Source of the DNA: Ascochyta rabiei
Lineage: Eukaryota; Ascomycota; Dothideomycetes; Pleosporales; Didymellaceae
DNA: 64,000 nucleotides
Assembly: GCF_004011695.2 (NCBI RefSeq)
Contig: NC_082424.1
Span: forward strand, 1,205,206 to 1,269,205
Direction: 5' to 3'
Part shown: one piece after another, positions 24,081 through 64,000 of the stretch
How the letters are laid out: every line of letters starts with the position of its first letter
Numbering within the stretch: the first letter of the stretch is position 1
The notes under the pieces: generated by a model
The model's database searches: none
Told to the model about the DNA's origin: nothing
Seen by the model: only the letters and a program-made list of their open reading frames with translations
Program-made: the position numbers and the translations under genes

Positions 24081-27000
24081 CTACAGGAGCACCTCTAGGT
24101 ATACAATATTAGGGACCGTACAGGATGGCTCATCGCTAGTATCAGGTGCTGGCAGCAGGATTAACAGGCCTGCAAGTGTAGTTACACGGGACATAGCTAC
24201 GTATAGCTGGCCATGTGTAAACACAGCGTAACGCAGATTAACGCCTACAACAGAGAGTGACTGGCCCTGTGACTTGTTTACAGTGATTGCAAAGGAGAGG
24301 CGAACTAGAAACTGGACCCGGCTGACGATAAACGGGAGCTCTCTACTGGTTGAAGTGAGCCTGATACGTGGCAGCAGGCGGAGCTGGCCTACAAACTCGC
24401 CAGATAGGATGCGGGCCTGGATACAGCGAGAGGATATCTGTGTAACCGCTAAACGGGTACCGTTGCAGAGCCCCTGGCTTAGGTACAGGTTCCGTAGAAG
24501 CATTATTGGTACGCCTACCTTGAGCAGAAGGCGTGACAGGGGCAGTGACGGGGGCTCAAAGGACTGCAGCAGCTCTACGGGAGGCAGATCCTGTGTTGTA
24601 TTGTCCTCAACCTCAGCAGAGTCCACTGCAACCAGCTCTACTAGCTCACCAGGGAAGGCAGCAAGCATTGCGGCGTTGATTACAGCTACTGCGTCGTTCC
24701 GTACGGCCAGTATAGCACGGCCGTTGAGGACCTGATAGTCCGCAGCAGCCTGCTGGAGGAGGTGCGGCGGATAGACGTGATCCAGGAAGCCCTGTAGGCT
24801 GTAGTAGACGGTCATCCAGTCTGGGATGGAGATCAGGCCATCCATCTCACGGGTAGCCAGTCCCCGGCACCAGGCTGCAAAACAGGTGTTGTCAGCCCCA
24901 GATAGCACCCGCATATTCTGACGCAGGTGCAGTACGGTCATGTGCGGCCATATGAGCGTAGACTGCTGCAGGCAGGCGTTAACAATGGCAGGCCGCTGGC
25001 CCCGGCGGACGACGGGTAGGATCTGGGCAAAATCGCCGCTGGCAATTACAGGGAGGCCGCCAAACAGGGCAGGGGAGCTACGGACGTCCTGCAGCATACG
25101 GTGGACTGCCTCGAAGCAGTAACGGTGCTGCATAGGCACCTCGTCCCAGATAACTAGAGTAGCGGCCTGCAGCAGCCGCCCAAGCTCCGAGCCTGGAGCA
25201 ACAGGGCAGATGGAATCGTCGTGGATATCCAACGGGATCCGGAAACGGGAGTGGGCAGTGCGGCCGCCGGGCAGCAGGACAGCAGCTATACCCGACGACG
25301 CAACGCACAGGACCACCCAGCCTGTAGAGCGATAGTAGGCACATATACAGCGCCAGAGGAACGTCTTGCCTGTGCCTGCTGGGCCCTGTACAAAGAAGTG
25401 GGCAGTGCTGTGGTCAGCCTCAATAGCGGCAGTAACGGCATCAAATACGGCGCGCTGGTCCATATTCAGCCCTGTAACAGTGTCCCAGAAGGCAGTGTCC
25501 TGCCCGTCTGTATCGTAGGCCAGCTCAGCGGCAAGAAGCTGATTCTGCAGCCGTACTCCCCAGTTGAACTGGCACGCAGGGAGTGAGAAATCCGTAAGAC
25601 GTTTGCCAGACTCTGCCAGCAGCCCTTCTATCAGATACAGGCCGTAGTCAAGGTACGCGTCTGGATCTGCGGATACTAGCAGGGCAGCAGCAGCCTCAGG
25701 TAAGTCGTCACACAAATCCGCCTGGAAGGCTGCCCAGATAGCAGCTGGATCTGTAACAGGCCCATTTAAGAGAGCAGCAACGAAGAAGTACTGTAACGCC
25801 TGGCCTGTGGCAAACGTAACGGCGTCCTGGAAGCAGGCTACCCAGTCTCCATCGTGTAGCAGTAACCCGCGGGCAGCTGCGGCGGCCTGGAAAGTAGGAT
25901 ACTCTGTGCCGCTAAAGGTACGCAGGTCCGCGTAGGACTGTGGACCCCGTACGGTAGTCAAGAGAAGCCGTAGATAGAACCGTTCACCCTGTAGCGGGCT
26001 GCAAAAGTACATGCGGCCAATCGCAGTGCCGCGCTGACGCACGTGCCAGGTCCGTGACGGGAGGTGCCAAACAAACTGGGATGGATAGTCCTGATATAGG
26101 ACCTCACGGCCATACTCATGGTCAGCGTTGCGCTGGAAGAACGCTGTAAGCGTAGTTACAGATCGCTCCAGGCGGGCTGATAACTCTGCAGTGGTAGCGT
26201 TAGCAGGGAACGTAACTATCTGCTTATTCGGTAGGTGGACCGCTAGGGGCACTACAGTGGGCCGCTCCATATGTACTGGGTACTCAAACAGCCGCCAAAC
26301 AGCCTCAGATGGACTGATATATCGCCCGTTTAGATGCTGCTTAACCTTATCTGCTTCTGAGACGTTTAGTACTGCCCTGTCAGTGCCCTTGTAGATGTAC
26401 TTGTGGACGTATTTGATAGCGTGGATAGTGCCGCAAACCTCTACATTGATATGGGCCTAGTACTTACGGAGCAGACCAGGGTTATACGGGACAACCCAGC
26501 TGTTATTAAGGTGTACAATACGGCCCTTACACTGTACAGCAAGCGTGCGGCCATCATCCCAGCGCTGATACTCAGGGTACCCGTCCTTATGGACCACTGT
26601 AGATGGGCAGTAACGCTTAGGAAAGTTCTTAGAGCACCGCGGCGGGGCGCTGTCGCGCTGAGGCACCATACACGGGGCCTGCAGATTGTGCTCCCCACAT
26701 GGCCCGTGAAGCATGAAGGTCCGTACAACCTCTGTAAGCAGGCCGTCTGGGTCATCCACAGGGGAAGGGATCTCAGCCCGGATAGTGCTATCAATTGTTA
26801 CAGGATCCGTGAACGCCTCGCGGTTGTGTGGGGTCAGGAACAGCAGCAGGTGTATATGGGGCAGGCCCCGTTTCTGGTACTCAATCGTGTACACGTGGCC
26901 CAGATGGGTGCCGAACAGGTTGCTCTTCACATCGGCTACTAGCTTCTGCACCTTCAGATGGAAGGCCCGGCAGATTAGATCAGGCCGATTCAGGCCTGTC

Positions 27001-28541
27001 TCCCCAGGGCGGAGCTCACGGGCAACCTCTGGCCAGTATGGGCTAGCTGTAAAAGTGATAAACAGGGTAGGGCGGCCATATCGACGGACGATAGCCATAG
27101 AGTCCTGATAGCACTGGCTGACAAATCGTGAGCTGCCTAGATAGGACGACGGCAGGACAACGCGGCGTCCAACAGGGCCTGCCTGGGCGTTGTTGTTGCC
27201 CATAACGGCATCAGCAACACCGCTATACAGGTCTGCCCGCAGCTGTGCCTGGTTTGCTCGGATCCAGGCCAGCCGGGCCTGGTCGCAGATAGCCCAGATA
27301 TCCACAACGTACTGCTGAAACAGCCTGTAGAAGCGGAACGGATTTGTAGTCTGCCCAGGGCGGGGGTGTAGATAGTATCGATAGTAGGTTTGCTGGGTCA
27401 GCGACGTCTGCAGACGGGATCCGTCCTGGTTACGGAGCGTTAGCCCCGGCCGCCACCCAGAATCCCTGTGGGGAAACATCAGTACGTAGTGTAGCGGCAT
27501 GTAAGATGGGTGGGCGGCGCTGATAGTAAACAGGGCGCTAAAGTTACGGGCCGCTAGGACGATGGGACGGGACGTCTCTGCACCTGCTGCGTCAGGTATT
27601 ACTAGGCCTAGCTCATCGCTAGTAGGTACGTTCTCCCTGCGGCGGTCCTGCCCAGTCTCTAGGGCTAGTGTAAGCCTGCTGGTTAGTATGACGCGGGCGT
27701 CTGCAGCGCTACTGTTGAGCCGATCCTGGGCCGTGCGGTATATAGATATATATGGGTTATTGATCTCATATAGCATTGCTGTTAGATCTTGGAGAATCTG
27801 GAGCTGTAAGTGGCTGTTCCGCTGGTGGCGGGCGTTGGCAGCGTACTGTGGGTCGTAAAAGTATAGCTGAGCGTACTGCGGCAGGCTTCCCTTAAGAACC
27901 TCTACAGGGCCGCTGCGGTGGTATAGGGCCCCGTGGATCTGAAACACCTGCACGCCAGGGCCCTGCGCCCCACGGCTGGTAGGTGTACAGTCTACCGAGG
28001 TAAACGCAAAGGCAGCGTTGTAGGCCCGTAGCTCCTTACGGAAGTGCCGCGCTGCTAGAGTATTCGTGTTGAGTAGCTGATACAGGTACGACGGCAGCGG
28101 TGTGAGGGCTGGCAGGTCGACCTCGCTGTCCAGGCAGCAGAGAGTAAATCGCGGGTCTGTTACAGAGGTAGTGCTCTTCCGCTCATCTATCCAGTGTAAG
28201 GCGCCGCAGGCTGAACAGGGCACCTGTATGCTGCCAATATCGTAGTATACACCATCAGGACGACGTCGCAGGAGCGGGGTAGTGTCCTGTTGGAGCCCTA
28301 CAAGGACTGTCTCGGGCAGGTTGTTAAACGGGTTATCACTATACTGGGAGCTAGGGGCAGCAGCTGGAGCAGCAGCAGCCGGGTTATTAGGAGTATTACT
28401 GGCACTGCCCTCACGGCGTGAGGCCTGTTCAGGGGCGCTAGCACTGGGCGCTGGCTGGGAGGCAGTTAGGCGGTCCCTCTGGGGGCTTGATGGACGTGGA
28501 GGTGTAGAGAGACGGCGTCGCCGGCGGCCTGCACGGGACGT
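24081..28541 (-). pseudogene. Helitron RepHel (HUH replication initiator plus Pif1-type helicase), one internal TAG
   Basis: One frame is open from 28541 to 24081 (1487 codons) except for a single TAG at 26457-26459, in the sequence LLRKY-stop-AHINVEVC. The Rep domain has the two-His motif (GLPHIHLLLFL) and, after the stop, the tyrosine motif IKYVHKYIYKG. The Pif1/SF1 helicase follows, with Walker A GPAGTGKT, Walker B LVIWDEVP and the late motif SFAITVNKSQGQS. Its length suits a RepHel protein. Upstream, a zinc-finger-like exon (FCSSCRTYLPS...PCSNCSA, 28588-28680) may be joined by an intron at 28549-28587. An in-frame TAG at 28542-28544 clouds that join. With one stop only, the copy died recently, or readthrough would be required for activity. 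CAG to TAG is the simplest cause. Confidence 0.9.
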
Positions 28542-48067: not shown

Positions 48068-48690
48068 CACTAACCTAAGTAGTTCCCCCCAACCTATGCA
48101 GATCCCCCAACCTAAGTAAAGCCCCCAACCCAAGTAAAGCCCCCCAACCCAAGTAGAGCCCCTAACCTATGCGGATCCCCCAACCCATGTAGAGCCCCCC
48201 CGACCCAAGTAGAGCCCCCAACCCATGCGGATCCCCCAACCCACGTAGTTAGCACCAACCCGCATAGTCAGCATTAACCTGCGTAGTAAGCATCAACCCG
48301 CGTAGTAAGCATTAACCCGCGTAGTATCCCAAGTGGTTCCCAAAGTGGTCCGCCAACCCAAGTGGTTGCCTAGTAGTCCCCCAGCCCGAGTGGGTCCACA
48401 AGTGGTTCCCTAAGTAGTTCCACAAGTAGTGCGTTAACCCAAGTAGTTGCCCCACCTAAGTGGCACGTCCAACCTGAGTGGGTCCCCCAATCCAAGTGGT
48501 TCCCAAGTAGTTCCCCCAAGTGGCCCGAAAGTAGTCCCCCTAAGTGGCCCGAAAGTGGTCCCTGCAAGCTAAGGGAGTCCATATTAGTGCCCCCAAGTAG
48601 TAAGAGCCAATCATTTAAGAACAGCGCACAGCCTAGAAAGAGCCCGCAAACCAGGAAGAGCACCTAAAAGCAAGTAAGTCCCTAACCTAA
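48068..48690 (+). repeat. Module A array of CCCAACCCAAGTAGAG-type repeats
   Basis: An irregular tandem array with a period of roughly 17-20 bases. Units are variants of CCCCCAACCCAAGTAGAGCC, CCCAACCCATGCGGATCC, ACCCGCGTAGTAAGCATT and CCCAAGTGGTTCC. It precedes the GC-rich block and matches 58700-59400 in order of variants (GTAGAG units, then GCGGATCC, then CATAGTCAGCA, then AAGTGGTTCCC). It has no spacers of constant length, so it is not a CRISPR array. Confidence 0.88.
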
Positions 48691-50401: not shown

Positions 50402-51580
50402 TAAGTATAAAGGAATAGAGTTAAGAGTTGTTTATAAGTAGAAGAAGATAGTAATAATAATAAAAAAAGTACAAAAGAAAATCGAGAGATGGTAGATAGA
50501 GATAAAAAGAAAAAGGAAAGAAACAATAGATATATAGAAGAGGGAAGTTAGAAGATAAGATATAAATAAGTTTTAAATAGTAAAAAGAATTAAAGAGAAA
50601 AGAGGGAAGTAGAAGAAGAAGATAGTTAATTAGAGGAGATATTGAATAAAAGAATAGTTAGAGAGAAGGTAAAAAGATAAGAAAAATTAGAAAAAGTTAG
50701 TAGAGTAAAAGAGAGAGTACAGATTGAAGGTAGGTGTAAGAAGAGAAGGAGGAAAGTTAAGGTGTTAGAAAAGAGAGTAGTAGAGAAAATTAAGTAGAAA
50801 AGAGGAGTAGAAAAGATAAGAAGAAGAGAGTAAGTATTAAGAGTAAAAAATTAGAGAGAGAAGAGAAAGGTAGAAAGAGAATAAGTAAGAGAGAGAGAGG
50901 GTAAGTAAGAAAGTAAGTTTATATGTAAGGAAGAAGGTAAGGAATAGAGTAAGAGAGAGTAGAGAAGAAAGTAATAATAATAGTTAGGTTTTAGTGTAAG
51001 AAGAGGGGTAGGGTTAGAAGAAAAGTTAGAAGAGTAAAAGTTGAAGTTTTAAAAAAGAGAGAAGAAGGAGAGTAGGAAAAGAAAGAGTGGTAGTTTAAAG
51101 AAAGATTGTTAAAAAGTGAAGAAGATTAGGAGTAGTAGAATAAGGAAAGAAAAGGATAAGGGAAGTAGAAAGGATAAGGTGTGTAGAAAGGATAGAGAAA
51201 AGTAGTAAGGATTAGAGAATAGGTGTTAAGAGTAGAAGAGTAGAGGGAAGAAAAAGATAAGAGAAGAAGAAGTAGAAGAGAGTAGAGTAAAGAGAAGAAT
51301 AAAGTAAGGAAGAAAGTAGAGTATTAAAAAGAGTAGAGTAAGAGAGAAAAAGAGGGTAAGTGTAAGGGTTAGGGTTTTAGAGTAAGAAGAGGGTTAGGGT
51401 TTTAGAGTAAGAAGAGGGTTAGGGTTTTAGAATAAGAAGAGGGTTAGGGTTTTAGAGTTAGAAGAGAGTTAGGGTGTTAATATAGAGAGAGTAGAAGGGG
51501 TTTAAGAAAAAAGAAGTAGAAATAGATAAAGAAAGAAGTAGGTAGAAGTGTAAGAAGAGAGATAAAAAGAAGGAAGAAGA
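50402..51580 (+). repeat. Module A purine-rich, nearly cytosine-free block
   Basis: Only about four cytosines occur in 1179 bases of the top strand. It consists of GAAGAAAGAGAG-type sequence with GTAAG and TTAGG words. A section around 50758-51000 is nearly identical to module B near 61497-61730. It ends abruptly at 51580. Confidence 0.9.
51366..51465 (+). repeat. Interstitial telomere-like array, four 25-base units
   Basis: The unit GGGTTAGGGTTTTAGAGTAA plus GAAGA starts at 51366, 51391, 51416 and 51441, with one or two changes in the last copies. The same unit type occurs near the true telomere at 62083-62140 and 63337-63380. Confidence 0.92.
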
Positions 51581-53852: not shown

Positions 53853-56800
53853 GATAGCAAACACTAGGCCAACGGACGTGTTGCATAGCGCCCACTTGTG
53901 TCCCTTCTGCTCCTTACACTATAGAACTATTTGCGCAGCTGTTTGAACACCAGCCTGAACTTCGAGTCGTAGTTTGTAAACCATGTGCCACTGCTATTCC
54001 ACCAGCGCAGATCGTTACGCACCTCAAAGAGCGCCATCCCAAGGTCACAGTCGCTACGCGCAAGAGCCTGGCGGCAGCTGTACGCGCGCTACCAAACCTT
54101 GCGTGGAGTCCAGGAGACGTGCGTGTACCAAGGCCGGCTAAGGAGCCCGTCTTTGGTCTGAAAAGCCGAGAAGACGGGCTGGTATGCTTGTCGGAGCGTT
54201 GTTGGTATACCTGCATCTCGCTGCAGGGCATGCAGAAACATTGCAAGGATGAGCATGGCTGGGTGAACGAACAAAAGCGAGGGGGAGATATGAGGCAAAA
54301 GAGCAAGCACTCGCGCAACCGAGTATGGCGAGACAGCCAATCCTGCCAGCGCTTGTTTAGAGCTGTTGGCTGGCCGGCGTATGTTGCAGTCGAGACGAGC
54401 GTTGGAGCTGCGACTCTAGCAGACATCTCCCAGAGAGTGAAGGCAGATCGCCAGCATCAGCGAGAAGAGCGTGAGGCAGCAGCAGCGCAGGATAAGATTA
54501 AAGAGGGCATCCGTTCGCAGGCTGATCCGTGGCTAGAGCTCACAGAATGGGTCCCGCACCTACAAGGTATCCCAAGGGCGGCACTTCTGCGCGCTAAACA
54601 GCTAGCTGGTGGGGAGGTAGACGCGCGTGGGAAGGAAGAAGTGGCGTTTGACAACACGGGCTTACGCGATGTTTGCAAAGCTATAGAGCGGCTGATACGA
54701 AAAGCGTTCGATAGCAGCCGAGCTGAGGTTGTCGGCAGACTCGCACTGGAGATTATCGAGCGACGTGAGGCGGGCGCAGAATCGAACGAGCGGCCCTTCT
54801 ACGCTAGGCATCGAGTCGGTACGATCAAGAAGTACAGCCAGAAGCTGGTGAGCATCCTCTGCTACCTGTGGCGCACATATGACCAGGTCGAGCGGCCGCC
54901 ATACAAACTTACCAGCACGCAAGACGCCCTCTTGGTGTCACTCCAGCAAATAGCCCGCTCAGACGACGCTGCGAAGAAAGAGAAACTGGAAGAGCGATGC
55001 CTGCGCTTTTGGATCGCCTTGCTCAACCACAGCCTGACTGGCGACGAGCACGAGAGCGCACTGCTGAGCGGAGTGGCTGTCCTCGGCCTCAAGCCTGATC
55101 ACCATGGCGGTGGGTGGGTTCCGGCGCACGAGTTCTCGCCAACGCTGTCTGCTTTGATCACTACCTCGAAAGCGCTTGTAGTGCATCATGCCCGCTGCCA
55201 GCGAGATAAAGCGCTTCAGAAAGACCCTTGTACAGCACCTACTGCGTATGAGCTAGTTAAAGACATGTCTGAACGGTTTATGACGCTGTCCGACTTCAAA
55301 GGCACACCCAGTCCTATGAATCGAATGCTCCGCTTGCGTACGCTAGCTAGAACACAGGCAAAGCGACGTAATACTCCCGGTATCGTGTCGTGGGATGGAG
55401 ATCGGCTTCTCATTGACAAGCAGAGCTTTTCGCTAGCCGATCTCCGGTCGATGGTGAAGGGACTCTGCGAGACGGTGCGGTTGCAGCTATTCAAGGACGT
55501 CCTACTCTTGGATCTAGACGAAAGGGGTTGCGTGCGACCCGGGACCACCCCGCTTCCAGAGGTGTCCGTGGACAAACTCGTCGATCAGCCAGCCGAGCTG
55601 GCTACGGGCTGGAGCTTTCTGAAGCACCCTAACAACCAGCTAGATAGATGGCAAGACTGGCTTCTAGACCGGGTGTTGGACGAGGCTCCGCTAAGGGAGA
55701 GATTCATTCGTGGGATAGATAGCACACAACGGCCGGAACGGACGCTATGGCGCGATGACGCTGTAGCTAGGTACATGAAAGGAGTGCGTCGGTTTAAAGA
55801 AGGCCTCTTCACGCTTGTTCACATGTCTGGCGGCGGGCCTGGTCGCGGGACAGAGATTACCTCGATACAGTGCGAGAACAGTGCAGACGGGGTAGGGTAT
55901 CAGGGGGTGTTTGTAGAGGGTGGCCTGGTATCCTTCACCACCACGTACCACAAGGGGTATAGCTTCAGCAAGCGTGTCAAGACGATCCACCGCTATGTTC
56001 CCTGGGAGGTGGGTGAGCTGGTGGTGTACTTCCTCGGGCTCGGTCGACCGTTCATAGATGATCTCCAGATGCTGCACAATGGCGTTGCCCGCCCTACCGC
56101 TTTCATCTGGGAGCCAGAGCCGGAGGAGCAGTGGGGCGACGAGAGCGATAGCGAAGAGAGCGACGACAGAGACGAGTACGGCGAAGCCGACCGTAAGAAG
56201 GCACGATCCGCTAACCCAGACGGGTACTGGGGCACCGATCGCATACGCCGTGTCCTGCGCGAGCAGACCTTTCAGTACATGAACACCGCTCTCGGCACCC
56301 GCGCCTGGCGGCATGCCTACCCAGCCATCCACCGAGAGCTGGCAAGAGATGGACAAGCACGCGACTGGTTGGAAGTGCTCTACTGGAACAAAGCGCCGGC
56401 GAAGAGCAACGCGCAAGCGTTGCAGTCCGGCCACAGCCTTGAAACAGAGGAGGGCAACTACGGCCGCTCCATGATGGAGTCTCCCTTTCAGACCATGGCC
56501 GAGCGGGAGGAGTTCCGGCGGGTGAGCATGGACTGGCATCGCGTGCTGGAGTTTGCATCCGCCTGGGAGGACGGCCGCATGCACCCCGGTGTTCGCGCGG
56601 AGATGGTAGCGCAGCAAGAGAAGCAGGCGCTCCAGCGCTGGTCGTCGCTCGCGATGGTGGACCTCAAGGCAGAGTTCAGGCGACTCGCTGGACGGCCGGA
56701 CGCCGAGTATCGTGGCAAGCAAGAAGAAAGCCTTGAGGCTGTGATGCAGCGACGGCTGCGCGTGCTAGTTGTTATGGCTACCGGCACCGGCAAGAGTATG

Positions 56801-58515
56801 CTGTTCATGCTGCCCGCGTCCGTCTCGCCAGGCGGCGTCTCCGTGGTCGTGGCTCCGTTGAATGCCTTGCGAGACGATCTGCAAGATCGCTGCGACCAGC
56901 TCGGCATCCCCTGCGCGAAGTGGGATGGAAGAAGACCGCCGTACTGGGCTCGTATTGTGCTGGTGACGCCTGAGAGCGCAGTCACGAAGGCGTTCGGCAG
57001 GTTTATTGACGAAAAGCGCATGCTCCATCAGCTAGATCGTATCGTGATAGACGAGTGCCACGTGCTGCTGGAGTCGACACAGGACTGGCGGCCAGACCTC
57101 CTCAAGATGGTGGAGATGACGGAGAAGGGCACACAGGTTGTCTACCTGACTGCAACCTTGCCGCCCACGCTGCAGCCCGCCTTCTTGCACACCGCAGGGC
57201 TCGATGCCTAGACCGTAACCATATGCCGCGATGAACGCACCACGCGAACGAACATTGCGTACCAGGTGCTAGAGTACACACGTGGCACGCTAGAAAAAGT
57301 ACTTATTGAGCTTGTGGCTGCGAAGAGGAGTAGGTACGGACCCAAGGCGCAGATCATCGTCTATTGTCCAACTGTGGACGAGACGAAACGGCTTGCGAAG
57401 CTTCTGCAGTGCTCTGCATACTACCGTCAGATGGGCTCAGACGAGGAAAAGGCACGCATGGTGCGAAGCTTCACCCTAGGCATAGAGAAGCTTTGTACAG
57501 CCACGAACATGCTGGGTCTTGGGCTCGACGCTGCAGGCGTCCGGGTGGTGATCCACGTTGCCATGTGTCCCCTGCTGCTCCAATATGTGCAAGAGAGCGG
57601 CCGGGCGGACGAACGGGCTCGACAGCGAGTCTATTGTTATGAGAGCGTGCTATGTAACAAAAGAGGGGAGGGTAGAGAAGGCGCTCGGCTACAAGCTGGA
57701 GCGACCTGCAAAGGAGTTTATGACAGTCGAATCCTGTCGGCGAATCGCGATAGACAAGCACATGGACGGCAGACAGAACAGCAGCAATGCGAGATGGGAG
57801 AGTCGAAGTGTGATCTATGCGAGCGACACCCTGGTAGTACCAAGCGAAGCCGTCGAAGAAGAGCAGGAAGAGCCAGAGGAGACGCAGGCCGACACCGCGG
57901 CGGTGGCAGCAGAGGAGCAGCGCAGATGTATAGAGCGAGCTATAGTCGTTAAAGAGCAGAGGGTTGAGATCCAGCAACGGCGAAGGACGGAACAAAAAGT
58001 ATATGACCTGGAGCGGCTAGAGCAGCACTTCCAGCGCTGGAGCAATGCGTGCGCCATCTGCATGGCCACTCAGGCTGACCCGGCGCGCCACGACTGGAAG
58101 GACTGTTCAAAGGCCAGCGGAGCGCAGATGACATTAATGGAGTCTAAGGTGAAATCTATGCACCAAGTGAAGTAGGAGAAGTATGCGCGGTGTTTTACTG
58201 CTGGGCGCCCCAAGCCATCTGCAAACAAGGGAGGAAACAAGCATACAGGGTGCGTTTAAGACACAAGGGATGCATGTGCCTTGCCAGTACGATGGAGTGC
58301 TCCAGAGAGCAGTAGCTGCGCTGCTTGCCTGCCAGCCACTGATGTGCACGCCATGGCTGGAGCAGCAGATGCAAGACGCCGCGATTGTGCACGGTAGCGA
58401 TGAGCTCCGGCTTTACAAGTGGCTCGGATTAAAGATCAAGATGGGCCAGAGAGACGCGAGCCAGATGTGTCGTTTCCTATATGCTTGGGAGGAGGGCATG
58501 TGCAGTCGTATTTAG
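53853..58515 (+). pseudogene. Telomere-linked RecQ-like helicase with zinc fingers and a recombinase-like core, interrupted
   Basis: One frame is open from about 53853 to a TAG at 57209-57211 but has no ATG, so a spliced first exon or a lost start is likely. Residues are counted from 54119. Zinc-finger-like motifs come first (VVVCKPCATAIPPAQIVTHL and CWYTCISLQGMQKHCKDEH, OrsD-type). A central domain carries R576 (GRGTEITS), K612 (YHKGY), R731-H732 (RAWRHAYP), H772 (SGHS) and Y781 (NYGRS). The RecQ motor follows: Walker A TGTGKS (K892), motif II IDECH (D978), and LTATLPP. After the TAG (expected Gln, in GLDA-stop-TVTICRDERTTRTN) the same frame continues with helicase C-terminal motifs to about 57605. 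Shifts near 57605, 57780 and 57835 and another TAG near 58173 then interrupt the Cys-rich tail. Family members unwind DNA and are confined to fungal subtelomeres. Confidence 0.85.
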
Positions 58516-58699
58516 CAGACTAGAAAGAATGTGTTTGATATAACCGTAACCGAAACCTTAGGTCAGGAGAAGTCAGGAGAAACGTGCTGTAGGCTGACTT
58601 GCGACTGCACAGTGATCACAAGTCAGAAAGTGCAAAACAGCCAAATAGCAACACAGACACTTCAGAGACGTAGAAAGAAACGCCCAGAGAAGGGCCACC

Positions 58700-59400
58700 G
58701 ACCAAAGTAGTCCCCACAACCCGAGTGATACCGCCAACCTGAGTAATACCGCCAACCCAAGTAGAGCCCCCAACCCAAGTAGAGCCCCCAACCCATGCGG
58801 ATCCCCCAACTCAAGTAGAACCCCCAACCCAAGTAGAGCCCCCAACCCATGCGGATCCCCCAACCCAAGTAGAGCCCCCGACCCAAGTAGAGCCCCCAAC
58901 CTAAGTAGAGCCCCCGACCCAAGTAGAGCCCCCAACCCATGCGGATCCCCCAATCCACGTAGTCAGCACCAACCCGCATAGTCAGCATTAACCCGCGTAG
59001 TAAGCATTAACCCGCGCAGTAAGCATCAATCCACATAGTCACATGGTCAGCATCAAGCCGCGTAGTCAGCACAAACCCGCGTGGTTCCCTGAGTAGTTCC
59101 ACAAGTAGTGCGTCAACCCAAGTGGTTGCCCCACCCGAGTGGCACGTCCAACCCGAGTGGGTCCCCCAATCCAAGTGGTTCCCAAGTAGTTCCCTACGTG
59201 GTTCCCTAAGTAGCGCGCCAAGTAGTGCGCCACCCCAAGTGGTCCGAAAGTAGTCCCCCAAAGTGGCCCGAAAGTGGTCCCCGCAAGCCAAGGGAGTCCA
59301 CATCAGTGCCCCCAAGTAGTAAGAGCCGATCATTTAAGAAGAGCCCCCGATCCAGGAAGAGCCCACAATCCGGAGAGAGCAGACCAAACCAAGTAAGTCC
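58700..59400 (+). repeat. Module B array of CCCAACCCAAGTAGAG-type repeats
   Basis: The same irregular 17-20 base units as at 48068-48690: CCCCCAACCCAAGTAGAGCC repeated about eight times, interleaved with CCCAACCCATGCGGATCC, then CCGCGTAGTAAGCATTAA and CCCAAGTGGTTCCC types. Read on the bottom strand it creates a repetitive frame LGALLGLGALLGLGDPHGLG; this follows from the unit length and is not taken as a gene. Confidence 0.9.
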
Positions 59401-59708
59401 CCATCCGAAAGCAGCCGTGCGTATTGAAGAAAGTGAGAGTCAGGACAAAGTAAATTTGGATAGATAGTAGAGTAGTTAAGAAAGACATGCGCAATAGGTA
59501 GAAGAGCCAGCAGGATGGTGGATGGGAGAGGTACAAGAAGTTGTTCGTGCAAGAGGGCGTCAATCGCGTTGATCGCGCGAATTTGGATTAGGCAGGGTTG
59601 GTTGCTTTGTAAATCGGGTATAAGAATGAATGGTAGAGGGAAAGGGCATTTGAACAGGGTATCAGGTGGATTGGAAAGATGGAACGGGATAAAATGACGT
59701 GGAGCAAG

Positions 59709-60240
59709 GTGTTTTGGGCGTTTACATAGTATTGTCACAAGATAGAACAGTAGTTAGGGGAAGTTTGGCAAATCCGATTGTGGTGCCGCAGCCCAGAAAG
59801 GCATTCCTGAACCCGTAGATGCCGTAGTGCGTGAGAGAGAGGGGCGGCGGAGGGCCCGTCAGGTGTCACAAAGCAGTTGGGCAGGGCGGTAGAGGGTAAA
59901 GGAGAAAGAGGGGAGGTGGGTGGGGCCGTGATAAGGCATCACGAGCAAAGGATGAAGGAGAGAAGAGAGTAGAATAAGGGTGGGCGGTGGGCCCGTGATA
60001 AGGTATCACGGAGAGGGGGTAGAGGTTGCGGGGGGGGCCCGTGGATGTGCCCCGGAGCGATGCGGTTAAGAGTGAAGGAGGGGAGGTGTTTAAGACCGTG
60101 AAGCGGGATAGAGAAGAGTAGCAGGTAAGCAGGGTGAAGAAGAGAAAGTGGTGGGCGGTAGGCCCGTCAAGTGTTACACAAGAGTGAAGAGGCAGTTGTA
60201 GAGATAGATAAGCGGTACAGAGAGCGGTTTTAAGGCGAAT
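59709..60240 (+). repeat. Module B GC-rich block with GGCGGTGGGCCCGT units
   Basis: It starts with a segment matching 48790-48960 almost base for base (AGATAGAACAGTAGTTAGGG, then GTGGTGCCGCAGCC and GAAAGGCATTCCT). Four or five GGCCCGT-centred units follow, each with AGGTGTCACA or ATAAGGTATCAC. It is shorter than the module A block. Confidence 0.85.
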
Positions 60241-60315
60241 TTTTTTCAGCAACGCAATGGTAGTAGCAATTAGAGTAGCGTTGTTCATGCAGCAGTATAA
60301 CAGCGCGCAAGTAGC

Positions 60316-63300
60316 AGAGATAGGGTTAAGAGATGTATAAAAGAAGAAAAGGAAAGAAAAGAGAAATGAAAGAATTGTTAAGAGAAGAGAATAGTAGAGA
60401 GGATAAAGTAAGAAGAGAAGTAGAAAAAGGTAAAAATTGTTAAAAGAGTGTTAGTAGGATAGAAAAGATAGTTAAATGTAGTATTTAATAAAGAGAGAGT
60501 GTAAAAGTATTAGAAAAGATATTTAAAGTGATTAAGATGTAAAGATAGTAAATGAAGAAAAAAGAGTAGAAAATAGAGAAAGATGAAAAGAAAGAATTAA
60601 AAAGAAGAGAAGAAAGTAGAAGAAGAAGTTAGTTTATTAAAAGATGTATGAAATAAAAGAGTAGTTAAAATAGAAGGTGAAAAGAAAAGAAAGATTAGAA
60701 AGAGTAAAAGTTGAGAAAAGAAAGAAGGTTGAAGAGAAAAAGTGTAGAAAGAGGAAGGAAAGGAAAAAGTAAAGTAAAAAGGAAAGTTGTAGTTTGTTAG
60801 AATTTTAAAAAGGTTGAGGAAGAAGTAAATAAGGAGAAAAAGAAGAGAAAAGGTATAAAAAGAAGTAAAAAGTAGAGAGTATATGTTTAAAGAGTTTATA
60901 AAGAGTTTAGGGAAAGAGATAAGAGATAGAAAGAAGAGAGAGATTGAGAAGAAAATTTAGAAAAGTAGAAAGAATAAGAATAGAGTAAAGAAAGTAAGAG
61001 GTAAGGATAGAAGAAAGAAGTAGAAGAAAAGGAAAAGAAGTTAAAAGAGGTTAGTTAAGAAGAAAATAATGTTTAAGAAAGAAAGATAAGAGAGTAAAGT
61101 AGGTTAAGAAGAGAGTAAGAATAATAGGTAGGTGTTAGTATAGAAAGAGAGATAAGTTTAGAAAAGAAAAGTTAGTAGGGTAAGAAGTAAAAGTAGTGTA
61201 AATAAAAGAAAAGAAGAGAGAAGAAGGTTAAAAAGAGAGATAAAAGTAAGAAGGTTTTTAAAAAATAAAGAAAGTAAGTTGTAAGAAAGAGAGTAAGAAA
61301 TAAAAGAGAAGAGTAGGGTTTAAGTGTAGGAGAAGAAGTAAGAGTAAGAGAAAGAAGGTGTAAGGATAAAGGTGGGAATATTAGTATAGGAAGAAAGTGT
61401 AATTTTAGAGAGAAAAGTAAAAAAAAATTAAGTTAGTAGAGTAAAAGATAGAGTAAAGAGTAAATATAGGTGTAAAGAGAGAAGGAAGAAAGTTAAGGTG
61501 TTAGAAAAGAGAGTAGTAGAGAAAAGTAAGTGGAAAAGATGAGTAGAAAAGATAAGAAGAAGAGAGTAAGTATTAGGAGTAAAAAATTAGAGAGAGAAGA
61601 GAAAGGTAGAAAGAGAATAAGTAAGATAGAGAGAGGGTAAGTGAGAAAGTAAGTGTATGTGTTAGGAAGAAGGTAAGGAATAGAGTGAGAGAAAGTAGAG
61701 AAGAAAGTAATAGTAATAGTTAGGTTTTAGTGTGAGAAGAGAGATAGGGTTTGGAGAAAAGTTAGAAGAGTAAAATTTAAAGTTTTAAAAAAGAGAGAAG
61801 AAGGAGAATAGGAAAAGAAAGAGTAGTAGTTTAAAGAAAGATTATTAAAAAGTAGAGAAGATTAGGAGTAGTAGAGTAAGGAAAGGAAAGGATAAGGGAA
61901 GTAGAAAGGATAAGTGTGTAGAAAGGATAGAGAAAAGTAGTAAGGATTAGAGAATAGGTATTGTGAGTAGAAGAGTAGAGGGAAGAAAAAGATAGAGAAG
62001 AAGAAGTAGGAGAGAGTAGAATAAAGAGAAGAGTAAAGTAAGGAAGAGAGTAGAGTAAGGAAGAAGGAGAGAATAAGTGTAAGGGTTAGGGTTTTAGAGT
62101 AAAAAGAGGGTTAGGGTTTTAGTGTAAGAAGAGAGGTTAGGGTTAAAGTAGGAGAGAGTGTGGAAAGAGAAGAGGTAGAGGTAAGAGTGTAAGTAAAAGT
62201 AAGGAGTAAGGTTTAAGTGTAAGAGAAGAGTAGAGGTAGGAAAGAGAGAGTAGAGAAGAGGGTGAAAGTAGAAATAAGTAGAAGTAAAGGTAAGGGTGAG
62301 GGAGAGAAAGTAGGAGGAAAGAAGAATTTAAGAGTAAGAGAGGGTAGAGTGTAAGAGGAAGAGTTAAGGAGAGAAGTAGAGAGTAAAGATTAGAAGAAGG
62401 AAGAAAGTAGGGATAAGGAAGAGAAAGTGTAAAGTTTTAATGTAAGAATAAAGAAGAGTGTAAGAGTAAGTATAAGGGTTTTAGTGTAGGAAGAGGGTTG
62501 GGGTTTTAAGTAAAAGTAGAAGAAAAGAGAAAGATGTAGTAAGTGGTAGAAAAGAGTAGAAGAAAGAGAAGGAAGAAGTAGAATAAGTTAAAGAAAAAGT
62601 AGTGTTTAAGAGTTAAGAAAGTAGGAAAAAGGAGAAGAAAGTAGAGGTAATAAGTAAAAAGAGAAAAGAAGTAGTAGAAGTAGTAGAAGAGGTAGTAGTA
62701 GAGAAGGAGTTTAGATTGTAAAAGGGTTAGGTTTTAGTGTAGGAAAAGTGTTAGGGTTTTGGTGTAGGAAGAGTAGGTAAAGGTTGAGGAAAAGAAAGGT
62801 GAGAAAAGGAAAAAAGAAGAAAGAGAGTTTTGTAGTAAAGTTTTAGAAAAAGAAGGAGAAGGTGAGTGTAGGTTAAAGAAGAAAGTAAGAGGTGAAAAAA
62901 AAGTAAGTAGAAGGAAGTAAGTGTTAGGAGAAAAGTAGAAAGAGAAGGAGAGTTAAGAAGAAGAATTAAGAAGAAGAGAGTAGAAGTGAAGGTGAAAAAG
63001 AGGGAGAAAATGTAGGGGTGAGGGAGAAAGAGAGTAAGAGAGTTAAAGAAGAAGAGTGTAAGGGTAAGGGTAGGGTTAAGTTAGAAAGAAGAGTTAGAGG
63101 AGTTTAAGGGTTGGGGAAAAAAGGGTAGAAGAGAAGGAGGTGAAAATAGAAGAGAGGGAAGAAAAGTAAAGTAGAGTGTGAAGAAAGTAAGAAAAAGAAA
63201 GTAAGAGTAAAAGTAGTAGTAGAAAGAGAAGTAAGGATAGAAGGAAAAGTAGAAGAAAGAATAGAAAAGAGTAGAGGAAAAGAAAAGAAAAGGGAAAAAG

Positions 63301-63907
63301 GGAGTAGAGGTAGAAGTAGTAGTAGTAGAGAAAAGGGTTAGGGTTTTAGAGTAAGAAGAGTGTTAGGGTTTTAGTGTTAGAAAAGAGGTTAGTAGAGAGA
63401 AGTAAGTGGAAAGAGTAGGAAAGAAAAAAAGAAGGAAGGAGGTTTTAGAGTTGTAAAGAAGGAAAAAGAAGGTAAGTGTAAGGTGAAGAAGAGAGTAAGG
63501 AGTTAAAAAGAGGTAGGTAGGAGAAGGTAAGTGTTAAGAGTAAAAAAGAAAAGAGATAAGAAAAAGATAGAGAAAAAGAGTTAAGAAGAAGGAGTTAAGA
63601 AAGAGTAAGAAAAAAAGAGGTTAAGGTGAAAGTAGAAGAGAGTGTAAGTAAGAGTAAGGTTTAGGGTTTTAGTGTATGGAAAGAGGGTAGGGTAAGAGAA
63701 AAGAAGAGAAAGAAGAGAAGAGTAGAGGTAAAGAGAAAGAGTAGAGATGAGTGTAAAAGGAGTAGTAAGTGTAAGTAAAGGTAAGGAAGAGGGAGGGTTT
63801 AGAAGTAGGAGAGGGTGTAAGAGTAAGGGTTAGAAGAAGGAAGAAAGAAAGTAGGAGTAAAGAAGAGAAAGTGTAAGAGTAAGTGTTAGGGTTTTAGTGT
63901 AGGAAGA
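60316..63907 (+). repeat. Subtelomeric purine-rich tract with no cytosine on the top strand
   Basis: From 60316 to the chromosome end I find no C on the top strand. The sequence is A- and G-rich with minor T, made of irregular AGAGAAAGTAAG words, and carries interspersed GGGTTAGGGTTTTAGTGTAA units (for example 62083, 62108, 62480, 62720, 63340, 63890). A segment near 61497-61730 is almost identical to module A near 50758. It has no open reading frame of interest and lies directly inside the telomere. Confidence 0.95.
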
Positions 63908-64000
63908 GGGTTAGGGTTAGGGTTAGGGTTAGGGTTAGGGTTAGGGTTAGGGTTAGGGTTAGGGTTAGGGTTAGGGTTAGGGTTAGGGTTAGGGTTAGGG
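63908..64000 (+). repeat. Telomere, (TTAGGG)15
   Basis: After GGG at 63908 the sequence is 15 uninterrupted TTAGGG hexamers, 63911-64000, up to the last base of the window. The G-rich strand runs 5' to 3' toward the end, which is the orientation of a right chromosome terminus. TTAGGG is the usual telomere unit of filamentous ascomycetes. Confidence 0.98.

Follow-up and report, generated by a model that had tools for sequence, protein, structure and literature searches.

The subtelomeric R element of Kluyveromyces lactis, which Nickles and McEachern are said to have described in 2004, reportedly spans 1.5-2 kb, lies next to the telomere at most chromosome ends and carries a strong purine/pyrimidine strand bias. 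By this description, the tract studied here in Ascochyta rabiei resembles it as a telomere-adjacent, strand-biased element found at most ends, but differs in that one base is missing over kilobases while T stays at ~19%, and in its host and telomere repeat. Degenerate telomeric repeats lying at telomere bases share with the tract a hexamer echo, telomere-like words and telomere adjacency; the tract, however, is far more decayed, extends over kilobases, has a non-repetitive look and occurs as near-identical copies at different ends. Further comparisons are offered by Encephalitozoon cuniculi, in which, according to the part of the source drawn on here, chromosome ends likewise have asymmetric strands, G becoming more frequent on the way from the core to the telomere (PMC4704409), i.e., a skew rather than a base missing altogether. 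In Naumovozyma castellii, the subtelomeric TelKO element contains scattered telomere-like sequences within strand-biased DNA, as does the tract, yet in the sections cited TelKO is TG-rich (75-82% T+G), measures 220-445 bp and is not described as C-free (PMC12408736), whereas the tract is A+G-rich. Finally, RecQ-type helicase genes lie beside the telomere in Ustilago, Magnaporthe, Metarhizium and Agaricus, an arrangement paralleled here by the helicase that flanks the tract and lies near the telomere of numerous ends; unlike the situation here, the relevant sections of that paper do not mention C-free DNA separating the helicase from the telomere (PMC7473861). A search of the open-access literature found no description of a C-free subtelomere, and the absence of one base over kilobases exceeds what we have seen described there for strand-biased subtelomeres, which are themselves known.

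A C-free tract and its spread over chromosome ends

The analysed window, a stretch of 64,000 nucleotides, forms the right end of contig C20 in a genome of 40.9 Mb and 23 contigs (22 of 1.0-3.4 Mb, plus one of 55 kb); its features are collected in Table 1. From 60316 to the end (3685 nt), the top strand comprises 1786 A, 1210 G, 689 T (18.7%) and no C, exactly as an earlier note on this DNA had claimed, and the last C before the tract stands at 60315. Since the flank at 54001-60315 contains 1587 C in 6315 nt, chance is excluded as the cause of a tract without C. Within positions 1-60300, the longest C-free runs measure 860 and 195 nt, both inside module A, followed by one of 91 nt, and the longest runs without A, G or T measure 50, 70 and 58 nt, respectively. 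Module A, regarded in the same note as a parallel C-poor tract with about four C, indeed has this composition and matches the tract at 90% over 61413-62143. The telomere-ward orientation of the C-free strand was likewise read correctly.

Table 1 Features of the window at the right end of contig C20. RIP, repeat-induced point mutation.
Feature	Coordinates	Strand	Basis
Module A, internal nearly C-free copy of the tract	50402..51580	+	4 C in 1179 nt
Shared subtelomeric flank	54001..60315	+	Copies at 16 ends differ in a RIP-like manner (437 SNP columns)
ORF, RecQ-type subtelomeric helicase, N-terminal part	54119..57211	+	DEAD helicase domain, weak OrsD match
ORF, continuation of the helicase	57266..57952	+	Helicase_C
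C-rich tandem repeats of 18-19 bp and related (CCAACCCAAGTAGAGCC type), between helicase and tract	58694..59211	+	
Proximal tract boundary	60303..60332	+	Exact 30-mer at 32 places
C-free tract, A/G-rich, T the sole pyrimidine, telomere-ward strand	60316..63906	+	Base count; homologous tract at 40/43 readable ends
Tract block aligned in five lineages (pool, C21 internal, module A/C6 left, C18 left, C11/C12 left)	61413..62144	+	
Cluster of telomere-like words in the tract	62086..62142	+	TTAGGG at 62086, 62111, 62137
Terminal TTAGGG array, 15.7 perfect copies	63907..64000	+	Tandem repeats, final 94 nt

That the tract is not a simple repeat, as the earlier note put it, holds at first look; at a low level, however, it contains blocks ~617 bp apart that match each other at 74-75% (blastn), a 25-bp telomere-like unit and a weak 6-base period. 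Its commonest words are AAG/AGA purine words. A triplex-forming function, proposed in the same place, fits poorly, as does a quadruplex-forming one, with the longest purine run within 60316-63880 being 32 nt and a search of that interval for strict G4 motifs yielding none. Rfam gave no matches at the gathering score, so that no RNA genes were found, and a tRNA search found none either.

The C-free tract is real and widespread in the genome. Its boundary 30-mer recurred with 0 mismatches at every one of its places, with 3 mismatches allowed, and full-length matches at 99-100% occurred at no fewer than 28 places, the window included, among the 40 of 63 candidates that were scored; additional copies are partial or older. 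For the 40 tract-bearing ends, the letters themselves were examined in 27, and the other 13 rest on genome-wide tract matches. The examined stretch covered 2.0-3.2 kb at C21 left, C22 left, C11 right and C16 right, and the 10 kb examined at C4 left consisted of N. At C8 right, C17 right and C19 left, the stretches examined contained no tract match, and the telomere repeats are joined directly to other DNA. Being absent from these three readable ends, the tract is not needed by any single end. The suspicion that it might be an artefact confined to this end is at odds with its recurrence at the others.

Among 16 closely similar ends, the strictly C-free suffix measured 3647-3706 nt in all but C14 left, where it reached 3445 nt, and over the 17 ends examined at full length the C-free length ranged from 3.4 to 4.3 kb. 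The 16 pool tracts contain one C in ~59 kb in total, located in C14 left at the equivalent of window position 60553; it may represent an older state that was lost from the other copies. At C13 right, 4339 nt are without C, on a different proximal boundary, namely the one also found in module A. Other tracts contain a few C (6 in 2675 nt at C6 left, 3 in 1425 at C12 left, 8 in 950 at C18 left and 2 in 3675 at C4 right). An old internal copy, ~30 kb from the end of its contig (C21:1190400-1194300), includes a purine array of the GAAGAAGAAGAAGAG type and carries ~10 C in its tract part, one of them seemingly at the position noted for C14 left.

The helicase in the flank gave at least 48 genome matches, most within ~10 kb of a contig end, with 45 of 183 candidates scored, and in-frame stops interrupt 12 of the 14 copies that match residues 1-1030. 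With its DEAD and Helicase_C domains and its position near the telomere at many ends, this gene has the hallmarks of a RecQ-type element. The C-rich 18-19 bp tandem repeats adjoin both modules (58694-59211 and 48072-48430), with a strand bias opposite to that of the C-free tract. Elsewhere in the window, two adjacent ORFs on the minus strand (24084-28223) carry PIF1-like helicase and Helitron_like_N domains, i.e., a Helitron-type element.

RIP-like mutation in flank and tract

SNP columns were counted in an alignment of 16 ends over 10 kb. The flank showed 8-31 of them per 250 bp (~17), right up to the boundary, whereas successive 250-bp bins of the tract held 23, 3, 1, 2, 4, 8, 0, 0, 0, 0, 0, 0, 2 and 0; the 23 columns of the first bin look like misalignment beside indels, nearly all being single-copy runs. 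Of the flank columns, 417/437 were transitions, and the rates of C>T/G>A depended on context: 0.55 in TCA, 0.49 in TCG, 0.40 in CCG and 0.37 in CCA, as compared to at most 0.064 in all others. Target sites changed at similar rates on both strands (159/371 vs 195/442), and so did non-target sites (C>T 26/1226, G>A 32/1553). The divergence of the flank is RIP-like: in this duplicated DNA, either strand undergoes C>T in the context YCR, where Y stands for C/T and R for A/G. RIP in Neurospora acts in a plain CpA context, unlike the YCR context (TCA, TCG, CCG, CCA) observed here. RIP proper is premeiotic and requires a RID-type methylase; three C5-methylase loci (PF00145) are present in the genome, on C1 and C10.

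On its top strand, the tract has 0 YCR sites, and 39 YGR sites represent bottom-strand targets. Mean pairwise difference among the 16 copies is 0.0017 in the tract vs 0.0176 in the flank (ten-fold), and the tract is quiet between ends mainly because targets of the RIP-like process are rare. Five of the 39 YGR sites are polymorphic, as compared to 195/442 in the flank (p 7e-5) and 19/56 in the adjacent 59401-60315 (p 0.03). Four of these five fall among 11 sites in the proximal third, and one among the 28 sites of the rest, which argues that target scarcity is not the whole story, and the distal two thirds are perhaps spared even at targets by recent exchange or telomeric chromatin. Trinucleotide counts in the tract (TGA 29, TGG 10, TGT 61) suggest that part of its targets was lost in the past.

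Telomere-type signals and a proposed origin

Along the tract, the autocorrelation of T, tested with an order-3 Markov null, is strongest at lag 6 (z 6.6), followed by lags 24, 18, 12 and 30. The lag-6 signal is concentrated in the distal (z 6.0) and middle (z 5.6) thirds, with z 0.2 in the proximal third, and with TTAGGG-like words masked it stands at z 4.1; a 6-base signal of G is not clear in the distal third, and in the C21 internal copy G periodicity is confounded by the purine array. Near-tandem hexamers number 223 vs 164 expected (z 2.3), with the proximal third below expectation. The flank at 42-50 kb likewise has an excess of such hexamers (z 6.5), and in core DNA a lag-6 signal (z 3.2) forms part of a 3-base pattern. 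From the proximal to the distal quarter, AT declines (50, 37, 13, 7) and GG rises (27, 51, 66, 79), and most of the nine TTAGGG words in the tract are distal. The C-poor part of the C21 internal copy starts with TAGGGTTAGGGTTAGGGG, TTAGGG repeats. A telomerase domain is encoded on C14 (E 2.6e-46).

A 6-base period together with telomere-like words beside the telomere is the signature of degenerate telomere DNA, albeit a weak one here that the proximal third lacks. TTAGGG-variant units were not found throughout the tract, most of which is unreadable as repeat units; we therefore do not class it as a telomere array, but consider it probably derived from one. Among the origins considered in the earlier note, drifted telomerase products fit best, given the hexamer period, the TTAGGG words, the repeats bordering the old copy and the telomere-ward gradient.

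We propose, with a probability of about one half, that the tract is a telomere-derived, three-letter, RIP-poor chromosome-end cap that decayed, was duplicated and spread to most ends. It would have begun as a telomerase product, whose G-strand is without C, since a TTAGGG telomerase copies a G-free template. According to the protein-counting model of telomere length, decayed repeats go uncounted; inner repeats could thus have decayed and ceased to count as telomere while telomerase went on adding fresh repeats beyond them. Blocks of the tract may then have been duplicated at TTAGGG junctions and copied from end to end via recombination. RIP-like mutation, the likely main source of the neighbouring differences, would turn C into T or G into A and never create C, so that the strand stays nearly C-free, and rarer mutations may have supplied the few C in copies outside the main pool. 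The nearly identical tract in 16 aligned copies, the telomere-like signals and the C count of zero support this proposal. Against it, strand-symmetric decay should have added more C, a deficit that is not significant at the strictest filter. In addition, the 6-base signal is weak and missing from the proximal third, hexamer and lag-6 signals occur elsewhere too, and it is not obvious how a TTAGGG template would yield A-rich stretches of purines. The sparing of distal YGR sites and the negative result for templated patching between blocks (see below) count against it as well.

Alternative causes of the missing base

The most interesting alternative to a telomere-derived cap, if an unlikely one in our estimate, is that C is actively excluded from the G-strand, being selected against or removed by biased conversion. 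Two motives are conceivable: a C-free repeat might evade RIP and methylation and thereby keep long identical homology between ends for recombinational repair, or a transcript of the tract might have to stay unfolded. C gains were counted in the five-lineage block, using 572 columns at a lenient filter; raw blastn difference counts had been set aside, many of them stemming from alignments of non-equivalent blocks, in favor of filtered or multiply aligned columns. Among 120 changes, 7 were to C. With expectations from strand symmetry (T>C from A>G outside RIP context, A>C from T>G), 2 T>C were observed vs 10.9 expected (p 0.001) and 3 A>C vs 22 (p 5e-7) at this lenient filter. Successively stricter filters gave 1/5.9, 1/2.5 and 1/1.3 (observed/expected) for T>C and 3/11.8, 2/12.8 and 1/3.0 for A>C, the last of each series no longer being significant. 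T>C was also rarer in the tract (2/100 T) than in a flank block (10/53 T; Fisher p 0.0005), the latter covering 59706-59997 in the pool, module A, C6, C11 and C12 with polarity set by majority.

Over 1705 aligned columns (91% identity), the window end and the C21 internal copy show 154 differences, of which 9 put C in the internal copy and 0 in the terminal one; yet this comparison is conditioned on the window end being C-free, the reason for its choice, and the imbalance shrinks to 5, 4 and 2 to 0 if 3, 4 and 5 matching bases are demanded on each side. The folding of a putative transcript is predicted to be minimal, at -0.9 kcal per 100 nt for the top strand and 0.0 for the bottom strand vs -24.9 for the flank, as the second motive would have it. 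On the other side, 3/43 readable ends do without the tract and several terminal copies contain C. Taken together, we see moderate evidence for an exclusion of C beyond neutral expectation. The fuller claim, that selection or biased repair keeps C out and that the tract serves as protected homology for telomere rebuilding, is rather doubtful. If it were true, the paucity of mutator targets would let the tract remain one long near-identical sequence common to most ends, protected while the neighbouring helicase module mutates to stop codons.

Templated patching from other C-free blocks was considered as well and rejected: once all blastn matches to the block had been taken out of the donors (4027 donor bases), matches amounted to 1/138 vs 1.2 expected at k=13 and to 11/139 vs 7.4 at k=11 (z 1.4). 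An earlier signal (k=13, z 6.0) had been obtained with donors that still contained homologous copies of the block.

The proximal third without a 6-base period and the dominance of AAG/AGA words would suit an unrelated, non-telomeric purine-rich repeat that came to cap the ends and spread from a founder that happened to lack C. We consider this improbable in light of the gradient and the TTAGGG words, both telomere-ward, and of the TTAGGG repeats that border the old copy.

Deamination of one strand appears quite improbable. The G-strand near the end might often be single-stranded, through resection, break-induced replication or R-loops, and its C converted to T to exhaustion. A trend of C>T by strand and distance at flank YCR/YGR targets (p 0.014) would agree with this, but is treated as weak, as it fades to p 0.29 without the repeat at 58650-59400. 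Moreover, T is too scarce in the tract, A>T (0.051 per A) is not in excess of T>A (0.060 per T), C>T and G>A occur at equal rates at non-target sites of the flank, and the C-free DNA has an abrupt boundary. As for ordinary DNA changed by simple C>T deamination, an origin already discounted in the earlier note, the tract has too little T and too much A for it.

A sequencing artefact is highly improbable: strand-specific nanopore miscalls of telomere repeats, with (TTAGGG)n read as (TTAAAA)n and (CCCTAA)n as (CTTCTT)n, are documented in the part of the source cited (PMC9414165), but TTAAAA (11 vs 8.9 expected) and AAGAAG (54 vs 56.6) are not enriched, AAGAAGAAGAAG is absent, and complex sequence recurs in full length at all of the places counted above, with internal copies that have diverged by ~9%.

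Kilobases lacking one of the four bases at many chromosome ends represent an extreme composition that needs a strand-specific cause. The tract bears on two questions, namely how telomerase products and subtelomeres are converted into one another, and how repeats persist where the genome itself mutates them. Together with its flank, it constitutes a natural paired experiment, in which adjoining stretches of the same copies do and do not offer C>T targets and each gain of C can be counted. The consequence to which our analysis points is a tract that stays near-identical between ends despite a genome that mutates repeats.
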